A stretch of DNA of 64,000 bases from Chitinispirillales bacterium. GTDB taxonomy: Bacteria > Fibrobacterota > Chitinivibrionia > Chitinivibrionales > Chitinispirillaceae. Of the stretch, positions 5,350 through 18,975 are shown one piece after another. The position numbers and the translations under genes were made by a program. The notes beneath the pieces were generated by a model. It searched no databases. It saw only the letters and a program-made list of their open reading frames with translations, and was not told the origin of the DNA. The stretch covers positions 62,001 to 126,000 of the forward strand of contig JAIRVB010000035.1 in assembly GCA_031254105.1 (NCBI GenBank). Reading direction: 5' to 3'. Numbering within the stretch: position 1 is the first letter of the stretch; every line of letters begins with the position of its first letter.

Positions 5350-7128
5350 TTGAAAAAACGTCCATTAACCTGCCAAGCTCTCACTATCTTATTTTTAATA
5401 TTACCTCTAACAGCGGCAGCATCCATGGAAGATATCAGGATTAACCAGACAGGGTTTTACCCAAGCTCCCGTAAGGTGGCTGTTGTAATAAACAGCATCG
5501 CTACCTCTGATGCTACGGAGTTTCAAATTGTTCGCGCGTCAGACGGCCGGTCTGTCTTTCGCGGTAATCTCAGCGCTCCTATCACCTGGGCTCAGTCCGG
5601 CGAAACCGGGCGGCAGGCTGATTTTTCGATCCTTGATAATCCGGGGCGCTATAAGCTTGTACTTAATAATAAAAACAAAACAGAGTCTTACCCGTTTTAT
5701 ATCTCTTCTGATATCTACAGAGACGCGGCGCGCGCTTCTACACGAACTTTCTATTTTCAGCGCTGCTCTCATGAGTTAAGTGATAAACTGGCTGGAAAGT
5801 GGGCCAGAGCTGCCGGTCATCCCGATACGGCGGTTTCCTTTCATCCATCAAGCGGTCAAAGCTCTGGAAAGATGAGTTCGCCGGGCGGGTGGTATGACGC
5901 GGGTGATTTCGGCAAGTACATGGTTAATTCGGGAATTACAGTAGGAACACTTTTATCTTTTTACGAAAATTATCCAAATTATTTCCCAGATAGAAGCTTA
6001 AATATACCGGAGTCCGGTAATGGCCGTCCCGATATCCTTGATGAGATAAAGTACAATCTTGACTGGATGAAAACGATGCAGGATAAAGATGGCGGAGTAT
6101 TCTTTAAGCTTACGACCCTAACTTTTCCCGGCTATATCATGCCTGATAAAGATGAAGGGGAACGGTATGTGATTGGAAAAAGCACCTCTTCCGCTCTCAA
6201 TTTTGCCGCAGCTATGGCTATGGCTGGAAGAGTTTACGCTGCCTTTGACAGGCAATACGCGGCTGACTGTATCGCGAGAGCGAGGAGAGCCTGGGATTGG
6301 GCGCAAAAGAACAATAATATACCTTTCAAGAATCCCAGCGATGTAAAAACCGGCGAATACCAGGACGTTAATTTTGAGGATGAGTTTATCTGGGCGGCAG
6401 CGGAACTTTTTATAACCACAAAAGAGAAACAATTCGCCGATTTTCTTAATACAAAAGATATAGCCTACAAAAGCGAGCCCTCATGGCAGAATGTTCATGG
6501 CTTGGCGCCTCTTTCACTCGCGGCTATTAAAAACGATCTTCCCAAAGCAGCTCAGGACAGCATCCGCGCTTCTATTGTGAGAACTGCTGATAAGTGGCTT
6601 AACCAAATGGATCAGCATCTTTACAGAGTGCCTGACCTCAATTTTATCTGGGGTTCAAACTCAATGTTTGCCAATAAAGGCATAGCCATGGTTTACGCGT
6701 ACAAAATTACCAATGATAACAAATATCTCTTTGGAGCTTGTGAAATAGCAGATTATCTGTTGGGTAAAAACGCCGCCGGAATCTCCTTTATGACAGGCAT
6801 TGGAACCAGATATGCGGCCAATCCTCACCACAGGCATGTTGTTGTAGCTGCCGGAATTGACAAAGCAGGAGTTGCCCGGCAGCAAAAAAGGCAAACCGCG
6901 CCGACTGATGATAACGTAGTTATCCCCGGATTTTTAGTGGGAGGCCCAAACGCCGGACAGCAGGATAAGGCTCATGAGGTAACATACAAACATACGCTTC
7001 CCGCTAAAAGCTACGAAGATGTTTATAAAAGCTACGCGTCAAACGAAGTCGCCATAAATTGGAACGCGCCGGCAACTTTTCTATTTGGAGCTATTGATGC
7101 CCTAATGGGCTCTTTAGCTAAAAAGTAG
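5350..7128 (+). CDS. Secreted GH9 endoglucanase
   Basis: 592 aa, starting with TTG at 5350 behind GAGGAG. Residues 1-25 are a signal peptide ending in AAAS. Residues ~27-115 are the Ig-like CelD_N domain (IRINQTGFYPSSRKVAVV), and ~125-590 the (alpha/alpha)6 GH9 catalytic domain. Key residues seen: GGWYDAGDFGKYM with the catalytic-base pair Asp183/Asp186, the PHHRH substrate-site signature (492-496), and YASNEVAINWN with the general acid Glu566. These are intact, so the enzyme should cleave beta-1,4-glucan by inversion in the periplasm or outside the cell. No carbohydrate-binding module or sorting tail is present, unlike the GH45 enzyme at 42-44 kb. Monocistronic. Confidence 0.95.
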   Translation: MKKRPLTCQALTILFLILPLTAAASMEDIRINQTGFYPSSRKVAVVINSIATSDATEFQIVRASDGRSVFRGNLSAPITWAQSGETGRQADFSILDNPGRYKLVLNNKNKTESYPFYISSDIYRDAARASTRTFYFQRCSHELSDKLAGKWARAAGHPDTAVSFHPSSGQSSGKMSSPGGWYDAGDFGKYMVNSGITVGTLLSFYENYPNYFPDRSLNIPESGNGRPDILDEIKYNLDWMKTMQDKDGGVFFKLTTLTFPGYIMPDKDEGERYVIGKSTSSALNFAAAMAMAGRVYAAFDRQYAADCIARARRAWDWAQKNNNIPFKNPSDVKTGEYQDVNFEDEFIWAAAELFITTKEKQFADFLNTKDIAYKSEPSWQNVHGLAPLSLAAIKNDLPKAAQDSIRASIVRTADKWLNQMDQHLYRVPDLNFIWGSNSMFANKGIAMVYAYKITNDNKYLFGACEIADYLLGKNAAGISFMTGIGTRYAANPHHRHVVVAAGIDKAGVARQQKRQTAPTDDNVVIPGFLVGGPNAGQQDKAHEVTYKHTLPAKSYEDVYKSYASNEVAINWNAPATFLFGAIDALMGSLAKK

Positions 7129-7229
7129 TTTTTCAGGCAGTAGGTTATCGATGTGCTTGTTTTGCCGGTAATCACTAACTTTTTTCCCCAAACTATTTAA
7201 ATTTATCTTAAATCCAATCAAGCTTTAAT

Positions 7230-7259
7230 AATATTTATCGACTATAACCGATAAATATT
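7230..7259. repeat. 30-bp perfect palindrome, copy 1
   Basis: Arms AATATTTATCG and CGATAAATATT (11 bp, perfect) flank an 8-base spacer ACTATAAC. A second copy lies 102 bp downstream, and both precede the DUF4143 ATPase. Looks like an operator or protein-binding site. Confidence 0.75.
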
Positions 7260-7331
7260 TGAAAAGTTGGTTTTTGTCGAATATAGTTTATGAAATTGGT
7301 AAAAACTATTTTTCACTCAAGTGTGTATGAT

Positions 7332-7361
7332 AATATTTATCGACTATAATCGATAAATATT
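7332..7361. repeat. 30-bp perfect palindrome, copy 2
   Basis: Same arms as the copy at 7230, spacer ACTATAAT (one base changed). It ends 67 bp before the ATPase start codon. The sequence between the two copies has a weaker relative, TTGTCGAATATAGTTTATG, around 7274-7292. The 7129-7428 gap contains no gene. Confidence 0.75.
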
Positions 7362-7428
7362 TGGAATATGCTATTACCATCGTCTATATTCTACAATATA
7401 TTGTGTAGCGAAAAGGAGGTTGATTGCT

Positions 7429-8613
7429 TTGATTAAGCGTGAATTGTATATGAAACAAATTCGTCCGTTTATCGGGAAAGATGTTGTCAAAGTTTTAACA
7501 GGTATTCGCCGCAGCGGCAAGTCCATTATGCTTGAATTGCTCTGCAAAGAGATAAACTTTCCGCATCGAAGCATATTAATGAACTTTGAAAGTAAAAAAA
7601 ACAGTAAATATCTTAAAGCTGACGCCCTTTATGATTATATAACGCGAAAAGTTGGCGATAGCAAAGAGAAGTTTTATCTTTTTTTCGACGAGATTCAGGA
7701 AGTCCAAAAATGGGAAGAAGCGGTAAGCTCTTTTCGTGTTGATTTTGACGCGGACATCTATATCACAGGTTCGAACGCAAAGCTGTTGTCCGGCGAGCTT
7801 GCAACTTACATTGCGGGCAGGTATGTACAGTTTGTTATATATCCGTTTTCTTTTGAAGAGTTCAGGGAAATTAACAAAGATCATACGTTCATGGATTATT
7901 TAGAAATCGGCGGCATGCCGTTTTTGAACAGCATTATTGATGATAAAAACGCTATAAAAGTGTATCTTGATGATGTTTACAATTCCATCATATTGAAAGA
8001 CGTTGTGAAACGGAACAATATACGTGATGTAGATCTGCTGGAGCGCATAATTACCTACATTCTGGCCAATATCGGTCAAACTTTTTCCGCAACATCTATC
8101 GCAAAATATTTCAAAAATGAGCAGCGTAAAGTTAGCACGGATACGGTTTTGAATTATATAAGAGCTTGCGAAGACGCGTATCTGTTCTATCAGATAAAAA
8201 GACAGGAAATTAAGGGTAAGAAAATATTGTCAGTCAACGAAAAATACTATGTTGCAGACCATGGACTGCGCGAAGCTGTTTACGGCAAAAACAATCAGGA
8301 CATCGAAAGAGTTCTGGAGAATATTGTATGCCTTGAATTGCTTCGCAGAGGCTACAAAGTTACTGTCGGAATTGTGGATGCTGTAAAAGAGATAGACTTT
8401 ATTGCGGTTAGAAACAACAAGCCTGTTTATATTCAGGTATGTTATTATCTCATTGAGGAAGCGACAAAGGAGAGAGAGTTCGGCAATCTTGAAAAGATTA
8501 ACGATAACTATCCCAAATATGTTATAAGTATGGATGAATTTGATATGAGCAGAAATGGGATAAGGCATTTGAATATTGAGGAGTTTTTGGGTAAGGAAGG
8601 CATGGCTCTTTAA
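7429..8613 (+). CDS. AAA ATPase with DUF4143 (AAA_14 family)
   Basis: 394 aa. The TTG at 7429 is preferred over an in-frame TTG at 7420 because GGAGG (7415-7419) then has a normal 9-base spacing. Residues ~19-130 are the AAA_14 domain: Walker A GIRRSGKS (25-32) and Walker B FFDEIQEVQKWE. Residues ~190-390 form the DUF4143 winged-helix and nuclease-like region with KEIDFIAVRNNKPVYIQVCY, a PD-(D/E)XK-like strand in which Gln replaces the usual Glu. The family is abundant in accessory genomes and its biochemical role is unsettled. A second, differently branched member lies at 22.9-24.2 kb. The two upstream palindromes suggest autoregulation (inference). Confidence 0.85.
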   Translation: MIKRELYMKQIRPFIGKDVVKVLTGIRRSGKSIMLELLCKEINFPHRSILMNFESKKNSKYLKADALYDYITRKVGDSKEKFYLFFDEIQEVQKWEEAVSSFRVDFDADIYITGSNAKLLSGELATYIAGRYVQFVIYPFSFEEFREINKDHTFMDYLEIGGMPFLNSIIDDKNAIKVYLDDVYNSIILKDVVKRNNIRDVDLLERIITYILANIGQTFSATSIAKYFKNEQRKVSTDTVLNYIRACEDAYLFYQIKRQEIKGKKILSVNEKYYVADHGLREAVYGKNNQDIERVLENIVCLELLRRGYKVTVGIVDAVKEIDFIAVRNNKPVYIQVCYYLIEEATKEREFGNLEKINDNYPKYVISMDEFDMSRNGIRHLNIEEFLGKEGMAL

Positions 8614-16558: not shown

Positions 16559-16882
16559 GTGTCGGATATAGATGATTTTGAAAGAGAGGTTATTGAACGC
16601 AGCCGTCAGAAGCCGGTGGTAGTAGATTTTTTTGCAGGGTGGTGCGGGGCGTGCAGTATCCTGGGGCCGCAGCTTGAAGTGGTACGCGAACGCCACCGCG
16701 GCGAGTGGGTATTAGTAAAAATAAATATCGACAAACACCCCGCGCTTGCCATGATGTGCAAGGTAACCTCTGTTCCGGCGGTAAGGCTTTTTATAAATGG
16801 TAAGATAACAGCTGAATTTGCGGGGGCTCAGCCCGCTCACCTCATCGAACAGTGGCTTAAGGAGAATTTGCCTCATCCGTAA
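16559..16882 (+). CDS. Thioredoxin-like protein with CGAC motif
   Basis: 107 aa, GTG start with AAAGGGG upstream. A single thioredoxin fold: VVVDFFAGWCGACSILGPQL carries the active site WCGAC rather than WCGPC, followed by INIDKHP and the cis-proline motif TSVPAVRLF. The Pro-to-Ala change in the CXXC loop usually shifts redox potential. It is distinct from the canonical trxA at 49.7 kb. It resembles the N-terminal domain of CnoX/YbbN but has no TPR tail. No export signal, so cytoplasmic. Confidence 0.85.
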   Translation: MSDIDDFEREVIERSRQKPVVVDFFAGWCGACSILGPQLEVVRERHRGEWVLVKINIDKHPALAMMCKVTSVPAVRLFINGKITAEFAGAQPAHLIEQWLKENLPHP

Positions 16883-16974: not shown

Positions 16975-17064
16975 TTGATACTTGATAAGTTCCTGAGAGG
17001 TTTACAGATGTCGTTTAAAAGAAGAATGTATTGCGAAGCGATACATTCAAAAGGAATGAATAGA

Positions 17065-17805
17065 ATGGACAAATTACCATTAAAATTAAAACGCGATCTC
17101 ATAACAGAAGCAGTGTTTGAGATACGCTTTGGTTCATCTTACCCATCCGGAGCTATATTTGGCATTGTTTACCAAATTATAAGCAAACATTATGAAAACA
17201 TTCAAAATATTCCTTTACCCATTTTGCAAATCCCGGAAGCAGTCAGAAGTGCAGATCCGAATTTAAAATATCAACCTCATAATAAATTACAGGTAGATTC
17301 TTGTGGCTTTAATGTTGGTTCCAATGTGATAAACTTTTTTGTACAAAAGCCATATATAGGGTGGAGTAAATGGAAGCCGCTCATTGAGAATATTATTACA
17401 GAGCTATTGAATATCAATTTATTTAAAACAGTTGAGAGAACTGGATTACGATATATTGATTTTATTGAGAAAAATTTGTTTTCCATTGCTAATATGAGTA
17501 TAGAAATAACAGGAAAAAAATTAACTAATGAACAAACGTCTTTTAGAACAGAATTCGCAGATGATAATTATACTAAAATTGTGCAAATGCATAACAACGT
17601 CAACGTAATACTTGAGAATAATCAACTTGTGACAGGTTCTTTGATTGATATAGACGTAGTGAGAAATTTAAATAGTGAAGGTATTGAAATTTTTAGCCAA
17701 AAATGGAGAGATATTTTGGAAGAATCACACCAAAAAAGTAAATCAATGTTTTTTAACCTTCTGAAAAAAGATTTCCTTAACGAATTGGAACCAGTTTATG
17801 AATAG
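17065..17805 (+). CDS. TIGR04255-like protein of unknown function
   Basis: 246 aa. ATG at 17065 is chosen because AAGGA (17051-17055) has a 9-base spacing and homology-like sequence begins there (LPLKLKRDLITEAVFEIRFG); an earlier in-frame start at 16975 overlaps the promoter. Landmarks of the TIGR04255 type: EAVFEIRF near the N-terminus, an SADPN..YQP region, then RTGLRYIDFIE mid-protein. No catalytic motif or membrane segment is visible. First of three tightly packed AT-rich genes; overlaps the next by eight bases. TIGR04255 proteins are sporadically distributed and uncharacterised. Family assignment is from remembered sequence wording, not a search. Confidence 0.65.
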   Translation: MDKLPLKLKRDLITEAVFEIRFGSSYPSGAIFGIVYQIISKHYENIQNIPLPILQIPEAVRSADPNLKYQPHNKLQVDSCGFNVGSNVINFFVQKPYIGWSKWKPLIENIITELLNINLFKTVERTGLRYIDFIEKNLFSIANMSIEITGKKLTNEQTSFRTEFADDNYTKIVQMHNNVNVILENNQLVTGSLIDIDVVRNLNSEGIEIFSQKWRDILEESHQKSKSMFFNLLKKDFLNELEPVYE

Positions 17806-18148
17806 TAACGAGCAATATCAAGTTAAATTACAAGTCGGAGCAGGTATTGCTATTGTGTCTTTAGCAATGTCTGCATCCGCATTGATGCCTTATTATGATA
17901 TATTCAATACAACCAATCCCAGTTCGATTTGCGTTGATGATAAATTATTGCCGAAGCAGTCGCCTGGAATTAAAGACGACTATTTTTCAACGCCGATGCA
18001 GTATGTTAAGGGTAATGTTGCCGGAACTGACTCGGAATATAGTGATGAATTTTACTGTTTTGATGACAATGAGGCAGTGGAATTTCCCGTTGTTAAAACG
18101 ATAAAAGTTAAGTTTAATAAACCGGTTATAAAAATATTTGAGGTTTAA
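17798..18148 (+). CDS. Small membrane-anchored protein of the three-gene cassette
   Basis: 116 aa, not recognised. It overlaps the upstream gene by eight bases (ATGAATAG), a sign of coupled translation. Residues ~12-33 are hydrophobic (VGAGIAIVSLAMSASALMPY), a single membrane anchor or uncleaved signal. The remainder is acidic, Asp/Tyr-rich and likely outside or in the periplasm. Ends 13 bases before the next start codon. Confidence 0.65.
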   Translation: MNSNEQYQVKLQVGAGIAIVSLAMSASALMPYYDIFNTTNPSSICVDDKLLPKQSPGIKDDYFSTPMQYVKGNVAGTDSEYSDEFYCFDDNEAVEFPVVKTIKVKFNKPVIKIFEV

Positions 18149-18161
18149 TAAGGTTACATTT

Positions 18162-18710
18162 ATGCAGCAATATGACTGGTATGCAGATATTCCAGCCAAC
18201 ATGTCGTTGGAACAAGGGGACATAATAGAAAAATGTAATATTATTGAACAAAATTATGACGCTATACTGAACGGCGATGAATCGGAGATGAATGTCATAA
18301 CTATAGATGCTATCGTTTTATCCCAATCTTGTGATATAGAAAATGACAAAATAGACTCAATTATTTTGTGTCCTATATTGTCTTTAAGAAACTTACCTTT
18401 TATTGATCCTGTAAAAGAGAAAGAAGCGCGGAGGCAAAGAGAAGCGTTAAGACAGGGAACTAATATCGCGTATCATTTATTGAATAAAATTGAAATAAAA
18501 GCATTGCCTGAAGATTACTATGTGGTTAGCTTTCGCCATATATATTCAGTACCTAAAAAATTTATAGAAAAAACTTTTAAGAACAGCGTTCGCAAAAGGT
18601 TGCTGCCTCCATATCGTGAACATTTATCACAGAGCTTCGCAAGGTATTTTATGCGAGTTGGCTTGCCATCGAATATTTCAGCAGCGGAAATTAAGGAATA
18701 TGGGAAATAG
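18162..18710 (+). CDS. Unknown 'SQSCDI' protein, third gene of the cassette
   Basis: 182 aa. ATG at 18162 preferred (AAGG eight bases upstream) over an in-frame TTG at 18138. Features: EQGDIIEKCNII near the start; AIVLSQSCDIENDKIDSIILCPI at ~52-74, whose Cys-Asp pair looks functional; a basic helix KEKEARRQREALRQG; and a basic C-terminal third (VRKRLLPPYREHLSQSF). I associate the QGDI...SQSCD arrangement with small conserved proteins found beside TIGR04255-type genes, but no activity is known. Last 20 bases overlap the converging membrane-protein gene. Confidence 0.65.
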   Translation: MQQYDWYADIPANMSLEQGDIIEKCNIIEQNYDAILNGDESEMNVITIDAIVLSQSCDIENDKIDSIILCPILSLRNLPFIDPVKEKEARRQREALRQGTNIAYHLLNKIEIKALPEDYYVVSFRHIYSVPKKFIEKTFKNSVRKRLLPPYREHLSQSFARYFMRVGLPSNISAAEIKEYGK

Positions 18711-18975
18711 CATTTTCTATATGTGGTTTTCTGCTATATTTAAAATAAAGCAAAAAATCTATAAATACCAATACCAAATTCACCGCATATAAATAGAGAA
18801 CCCAATCCTTTGAATAAAGAATCTTGTGTGTAAGCCCGCATGCATATCCTAAAATGATAATACACATAAAGAGCGGACTCTTGCCCAAAACCGTCTTTGT
18901 CCTTAAAGACTTCATTATCGAAATGGGCCAGCTAAGCCCAAAGCATATAAGCATCATAGCTTCAAAAATGCTCAT
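18691..18975 (-). CDS. Conserved small membrane protein, PQ-loop-like
   Basis: 94 aa with three predicted membrane helices (residues ~5-17, 35-52, 58-77) and short loops: MLICFGLSWPISIMKSLRTKT, then GKSPLF and a basic-aromatic end (LLYFKYSRKP). The WPxSI...S...KS layout resembles a half-SWEET/PQ-loop unit, and the length agrees with a widespread uncharacterised family. Substrate unknown. Its 3' end overlaps the converging cassette gene by 20 bases. Confidence 0.7.
   Translation of the reverse strand: MSIFEAMMLICFGLSWPISIMKSLRTKTVLGKSPLFMCIIILGYACGLTHKILYSKDWVLYLYAVNLVLVFIDFLLYFKYSRKPHIENAISHIP

Follow-up and report, generated by a model that had tools for sequence, protein, structure and literature searches.

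Three tightly packed genes in the DNA of a Chitinispirillales bacterium may be a horizontally mobile cassette that encodes a tripartite toxin–antitoxin module, in which a protein of the TIGR04255 family would act as helper of the antitoxin. We would give this statement, taken as a whole, an even chance. A toxin–antitoxin core alone, putative as it is, is probable, and a helper (chaperone-like) role for gene 1 is tentative, a little short of an even chance. The computed basis for these readings consists of the conservation of the cassette, the fold of the predicted toxin, the appearance of MazF and HEPN proteins in one and the same slot, the swapping of partners, and a link between gene 1 and the N-terminus of gene 2. 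The features of the locus are listed below, in positions of the window, by which we mean the whole stretch of 64,000 nt that was analysed.

16559-16882, thioredoxin gene (Pfam E=2.8e-21), 5′ neighbour of the cassette
17024-17048, no strand, inverted repeat GAATGTATTGC-GAA-GCGATACATTC between the thioredoxin gene and gene 1, a possible operator or leader hairpin
17065-17805, + strand, gene 1, TIGR04255 family protein of 246 aa, with an in-frame ATG also at 17056
17798-18148, + strand, gene 2, 116 aa, proposed bipartite antitoxin
17828-17884, + strand, N-terminal hydrophobic stretch of gene 2, LQVGAGIAIVSLAMSASAL, proposed gene 1-dependent segment
18080-18145, + strand, C-terminal motif of gene 2, EFPVVKTIKVKFNKPVIKIFEV, from an alignment of nine homologues, proposed toxin-binding segment
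18162-18710, + strand, gene 3, 'SQSCDI' protein of 182 aa, predicted MazF/CcdB-fold toxin
18213-18221, + strand, QGD motif of gene 3 (residues 18-20), invariant in alignment A15, with G19 invariant in A6
18318-18338, + strand, LSQSCDI motif of gene 3 (residues 53-59), with C57 invariant in 17/17 homologues
18597-18668, + strand, C-terminal block of gene 3, RLLPPYREHLSQSFARYFMRVGLP, with R165 invariant in 17/17 homologues
18691-18975, − strand, gene for a small hydrophobic protein, 3′ neighbour of the cassette
18711-18735, no strand, synteny boundary; DNA similarity to the congener G024 starts at about 18735 and runs on downstream

All three genes lie on the + strand, genes 1 and 2 overlapping by 8 nt and genes 2 and 3 separated by 13 nt, just as an initial annotation of this DNA had described them; it had also placed them correctly, between a thioredoxin-like gene and a small conserved membrane protein. 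The AT-richness that it noted relative to the neighbours is marked: the GC content of the cassette is 0.330, compared with a window mean of 0.439, which falls within the lowest 0.8% of windows of the same length, and of the 41 long ORFs examined, genes 1 and 3 are the poorest in GC. The congener G024 lacks the cassette; its similarity to the window ends at about 18735, and the genes just downstream are syntenic (small membrane protein, 73%; LptE-like protein, 86%; DinG-like helicase, 72%). When an empty site was sought through synteny of the thioredoxin gene, the flanks were found not to be in common in the relatives G016-G018. The cassette had also been credited with a candidate promoter of its own, but upstream of gene 1 a sigma-70 scan detected no promoter on the + strand, and shuffled sequence gave the same count as this region.

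Gene 1 had been called TIGR04255-like, a description left exposed to disproof and now secured: gene 1 is a TIGR04255 protein, matching the NCBIfam model over its full length (model positions 1-252; E=8.5e-31; 107.7 bits, with a curated cut-off of 30 bits). It also matches phrog_5464 (E=1.2e-39), and it is the only TIGR04255 copy in the window's genome. The family is sporadic and widespread, and its models (NCBIfam 'sporadTIGR04255' and phrog_5464) carry no stated function. A text search of the literature did not find the name TIGR04255, which subscription papers or supplements may still contain. The AlphaFold2 model of gene 1 (pLDDT 94, pTM 0.90) found no good match in a fold search of the PDB (best query TM-score 0.34), and the best TM-score in a search of viral models was 0.48. 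Sequence profiles of the PDB returned chance matches only for genes 1 and 3, protein A and hnRNP among them. SecB homology of gene 1 was rejected, there being no Pfam match at E<=1 and no SecB in the 50 best fold matches. The invariant polar residues of the family, R125, R129, D195 and D197 among them, resemble a specific binding site more closely than the groove of a general chaperone, a point against the helper role.

The initial annotation contains neither the predicted MazF/CcdB fold of gene 3 nor the occurrence of TIGR04255 in many toxin-like cassettes. Only MazF and CcdB proteins appear among the 50 best PDB matches that Foldseek gave for the AlphaFold2 model of gene 3 (pLDDT 82.7), with TMt 0.56-0.71, a best E of 2.8e-4 and a probability of 1.00, and the predicted model has their SH3-like fold. 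Gene 3 also matches phrog_4575 (E=2.2e-9). No Pfam or NCBIfam toxin model, PF02452 included, scored above its cut-off, and aligning gene 3 by profile with four canonical MazF sequences gave no significant result. By eye, GDI...AIVLSQSCDIEN...SIILCPI of gene 3 aligns with GD...RPALVVQGDG...IVAMIT of MazF. In a motif alignment of A15 with canonical sequences, made by eye with no structural superposition, the catalytic Arg (RP motif) and Thr of MazF are missing from gene 3, and its activity may therefore differ or be lost. RNA cleavage as in MazF is most likely its putative activity; alternatively, it may poison gyrase as CcdB does. The SQSCDI family may be a new branch of MazF-fold toxins, with a different active site around the invariant cysteine and the C-terminal helix, a suggestion that shares the tentative standing of the joint reading of which it forms part.

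For gene 2, no family match was found in Pfam, NCBIfam, phrog or PADLOC, and no DNA-binding domain was recognised. Genes 2 and 3 have the layout of a type II toxin–antitoxin pair, a small co-directional gene beside the toxin gene at a distance of 13 nt, and a short ORF stands directly 5′ of every intact gene 3 inspected, whether TIGR04255 is present or absent. Within the SQSCDI subfamily, the last 20-odd residues of gene 2 are common to loci with TIGR04255 (the window, L028, L029 and L068) and loci without it (L104, L106, L089, L095 and L100). The N-terminal stretch, in contrast, occurs in 4/4 of these gene 2 proteins with TIGR04255 and in 0/5 without it (nine proteins in all), and L161 also fits this pattern. 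In this toxin class, 42 gene 2 proteins were compared, and the hydrophobic stretch is present in 26/35 of those with a first gene, either TIGR04255 or another ORF in that place, and in 1/7 of those without one (Fisher p=0.005, with relatedness ignored). Six TIGR04255 cassettes of the class do without the stretch (L005, L146, L149, L153, L156 and L158), and it is missing in most cassettes of other classes. Because the C-terminus stays with gene 3 while the N-terminus varies with the first gene, we read gene 2 as an antitoxin, and from this pattern in the sequences it is probably a bipartite one, with a toxin-binding end and a partner-dependent end.

Gene 2 had previously been taken for a single-helix membrane protein. 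Its Kyte-Doolittle 19-residue maximum (KD19) of 1.74 is indeed just over the usual transmembrane threshold of 1.6, but most homologues of its class reach 0.9-1.7. A membrane module, and with it a membrane role for gene 2, was rejected: the hydrophobicity is marginal, the stretch is missing from several cassettes, and an antitoxin extension tied to gene 1 fits better. Some cassettes of the divergent MazF-fold class have an HTH-bearing gene 2, and HTH or Xre-like antitoxin domains are found in a few gene 2 proteins of other cassettes, with TIGR04255 still present. An HTH-like region was seen in gene 2 of the TIGR04255 cassettes L111, L114, L122, L137 and L044; the third gene was read in all of these except L137, and its SQSC motif there takes the form TQSC, THAC, SHPC or QHPC.

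The same gene order was first found in two plasmids, of Methylocystis iwaonis (NZ_CP143318) and Phocaeicola massiliensis (OY726032). It turned up again, in searches led by TIGR04255, in viral contigs, in a methanogen and in genomes with the labels Spirochaetota, Acidobacteriota, Bacteroidota, Pseudomonadota and Myxococcota. The recurrence of one order in archaea and across phyla goes far beyond what chance would give for a three-gene architecture, and the earlier proposal that the three genes form one unit stands. Nor are the homologues mostly found apart, as that proposal had allowed they might be: TIGR04255 is nearly always followed by a gene pair of this kind. Its own distribution is sporadic, with 8/168 genomes of the window's phylum (Fibrobacterota), 24/396 in a Bacteroidota-centred set and 30/399 in a set around a Mesorhizobium genome. 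In the phylum set, two genomes, G150 and G114, carry cassette contigs that are also those of the Fibrobacter records from which L039 and L040 come. On the tree, gene 1 has its nearest TIGR04255 relatives in an archaeon and in a MAG labelled Spirochaetota, and this placement points towards horizontal transfer. The MAG of L028, titled Borreliella garinii, measures 3.4 Mb, far above what is expected for that species, so the label is probably wrong. A near-identical cassette adjoins phage terminase genes both in viral contigs and in prophages of Fibrobacter (L018, positions 6205-7889; L025, L026 and L039).

Relatives of gene 3 were searched for independently of gene 1. In the window's phylum they occur in five genomes, beside TIGR04255 in two (G000 and G150), with another first gene in G071, and as the gene 2-gene 3 pair alone in G012 and G052. 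The Bacteroidota-centred set has gene 3 beside TIGR04255 at three places and beside another first gene at one, and most of its remaining places are copies of one lineage with the pair alone. Gene 3 stands beside TIGR04255 in 9/12 cases in the archaeal set and in 2/2 in the Spirochaetota set. Single queries with P0003, and with P0001 in viral contigs, gave no matches. The pair without gene 1 was seen at L104, L106, L089-L095, L155, L157 and L159, and gene 3 relatives without gene 1 make up a minority of lineages. From these counts, genes 2 and 3 are the constant core, and TIGR04255 is a frequent, separable third member.

The partners of TIGR04255 were surveyed at 90 loci, which yielded 87 TIGR04255 ORFs (about 75 distinct at 80% identity). 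By automatic call, a second ORF lies within 60 nt downstream in 81/87 and a third ORF follows in 68/87, several of the missing ones being due to contig ends or to the simple ORF caller. The third genes comprise a divergent MazF-fold class, canonical MazF, HEPN, 'RHANI', 'FLAR' and a loose 'LLRAI/YRR' group, the classes beyond PemK and HEPN having been sorted by eye; at least four of the types that follow TIGR04255 are unrelated to one another. Canonical PemK/MazF occupies the third place at L062, L064, L070-L072 and L113 (PF02452 E=1.1e-18 in L113), and PF02452 matched 3/45 of the third genes scanned, all of them canonical. In these cassettes gene 2 encodes 95-116 aa and its end resembles LRLKTFADDWDYPGMEAYDEL. 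A HEPN or HEPN-like third gene is present at L061, L021, L022, L015 and L130, with PF05168 in two (best E=4.2e-6). The presence of canonical MazF and HEPN in the third slot supports the toxin reading of gene 3 by a line of evidence independent of structure. The third-gene type changes 17 times on the TIGR04255 tree, where the minimum is 6 and the mean for shuffled types is 37, and the sampled canonical MazF clade is sister (100/99) to two cassettes with a divergent gene 3. Third-gene types are clustered on the tree yet have been exchanged repeatedly.

At L021, in the Thermus brockianus plasmid pTB1, a TIGR04255-HEPN cassette has VapC, Cas6 and an Argonaute-type gene no more than about 7 kb away. 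At L109 and L110, TIGR04255 is followed by a protein with the pattern HVGIIY...CHLAWH...GLTCATF, reminiscent of NlpC/P60-like peptidases and possibly a further effector type. L141 (1711-3549, Acinetobacter plasmid pYWS30-1-6) and L142 (1147-3085) are three-gene cassettes with a FLAR-type protein last and a first gene of 226-243 aa that has TIGR04255-like motifs by eye; a two-gene form of this cassette was sought in plasmids, and both Acinetobacter loci examined had the first gene. At L098 (2350-2991, − strand) and L107 (544-1173, + strand), proteins of 213 and 209 aa stand in the gene 1 slot, followed by a gene 2 that is hydrophobic and a gene 3 with a CD motif, and may represent a second type of helper. 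Homology of these proteins to TIGR04255 was rejected (hhalign probability 1.9).

The order regulator, antitoxin, toxin is also that of omega-epsilon-zeta modules, and gene 1 could on this model be a DNA-binding autoregulator that represses the operon at an upstream operator, with gene 2 as the antitoxin and gene 3 as the toxin. We consider this unlikely. A near-perfect inverted repeat does lie just 5′ of gene 1 (11-nt arms, 91% complementary, z=1.7 against shuffles), but repeats of such strength are no general feature of the DNA preceding TIGR04255 genes, and an operator repeat was rejected as a feature of the family (mean z 0.6 across 46 loci). TATA-binding proteins come up repeatedly in the fold searches with gene 1, although these matches are weak, with TM-scores of only about 0.22-0.35. 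Gene 2 of the window is without a recognised DNA-binding domain, as an autoregulatory gene 1 would have it, whereas some gene 2 proteins carry an HTH of their own while TIGR04255 is present, and the link between gene 1 and the N-terminus of gene 2 would be left unexplained. It is likewise improbable that the cassette is an infection-responsive abortive system, in which TIGR04255 would be a sensor that switches on gene 3 as the effector, with gene 2 serving as an activator or as an anchor in the membrane and not as an antitoxin. This is a concrete form of what the initial annotation proposed. Cassettes are found in viral contigs or prophages (L018, L023, L025 and L026) and in an archaeal virus (L022), and on plasmids, next to an abortive-infection gene in L005 and to an Argonaute-type gene in L021. 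Toxin-antitoxin-chaperone systems can be anti-phage (PMC11618068). However, defence genes lie beside the cassettes at only some loci, and the 97 neighbour proteins, which include type I restriction genes, DUF499 and a PLD helicase, come from cassette loci only, without a control set. PADLOC gave no match beyond noise for the three genes (E=0.014 to one model for gene 1; none for genes 2 and 3). Gene 2, marginally hydrophobic and with a C-terminus that goes with gene 3 in loci without gene 1, fits an antitoxin better than an anchor.

Very unlikely, in our view, is a two-gene toxin–antitoxin core of genes 2 and 3 to which TIGR04255 is an accessory acting on the same target or elsewhere, and not on gene 2. 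The pairs that occur without gene 1 are what such a core would look like, and the invariant polar residues of TIGR04255 could be an active site. Against it, TIGR04255 almost always comes first in a tight operon, the third genes of these operons are of at least four unrelated types, and the N-terminus of gene 2 varies with the presence of TIGR04255. We return to a tripartite toxin–antitoxin module with TIGR04255 as antitoxin helper. Under this preferred reading, gene 3 would be a toxin of MazF/CcdB-type fold with a divergent active site, probably cleaving RNA. A short C-terminal segment of gene 2 would bind and block it, while the N-terminal stretch of gene 2 would confer dependence on gene 1, a dedicated helper that would bind and stabilise gene 2. 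If gene 1 were lost or titrated, for example during phage infection, the toxin would be freed. Toxicity, neutralisation, the chaperone role and the trigger are the parts of this scheme that we infer. The 'defence or stress module' of the initial annotation agrees in general with the toxin–antitoxin reading, but its membrane component, as written, does not.

The three-gene, toxin-antitoxin-like context of TIGR04255 is described in this analysis. As the common first component of many such cassettes, the family gains a testable role, and the third-gene slot predicts several new toxin families. A wider reading, which we hold with rather more doubt than confidence, is that TIGR04255 proteins are a new class of hyperpromiscuous third components, unrelated to SecB, that control MazF-fold, HEPN and undescribed toxins in bacteria, archaea and viruses, and that SQSCDI is a new MazF-fold branch. 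If so, chaperone-style control of toxins would have evolved with a protein other than SecB. Should TIGR04255 sense phage in the way that CmdC does, it would represent a new sensor module that could be combined with many effectors.

The closest comparison is with toxin-antitoxin-chaperone (TAC) modules, such as Mtb HigBA1-SecB, HicAB, MqsRA and CmdTAC. In these systems, one chaperone type controls HigBA, HicAB and MqsRA pairs via antitoxin extensions without shared sequence (PMC5105189), and in CmdTAC the toxin is released when a phage capsid protein titrates the chaperone (PMC11618068). Like the cassette, TAC modules are three-gene operons; they have one helper for unrelated toxin–antitoxin families, the part proposed here for TIGR04255, and their antitoxins have a helper-linked extension of variable sequence (PMC5105189, PMC11618068), to which the N-terminal stretch of gene 2 may correspond. 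TIGR04255 likewise stands with several families (divergent gene 3, PemK, HEPN and further types). In TAC, however, the helper is SecB-like and encoded last, and the addiction segment is C-terminal, whereas in the cassette the first gene encodes TIGR04255 and the proposed segment is N-terminal. The SecB role would here be filled by an unrelated protein. The cassette may work like TAC, yet we do not file it as TAC, because gene 1 shows no SecB similarity (Pfam at E<=1; 50 best fold matches) and the gene order and the end of the antitoxin involved differ.

Gene 3 itself resembles the PemK/MazF type II toxins (PF02452) in its predicted fold, and canonical PemK occupies the same slot in sister cassettes. 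It differs from them in lacking a PF02452 match and the RP and Thr positions, and in having instead an invariant Cys in xQSCD and a C-terminal helix block with the invariant Arg165. Finally, the hyperpromiscuous Panacea/NetFlax antitoxin domains are like TIGR04255 in that one conserved protein is combined with many toxin types, but Panacea is a domain of the antitoxin itself, whereas TIGR04255 is a separate first gene besides the putative antitoxin (PMC8832971, PMC10440598).
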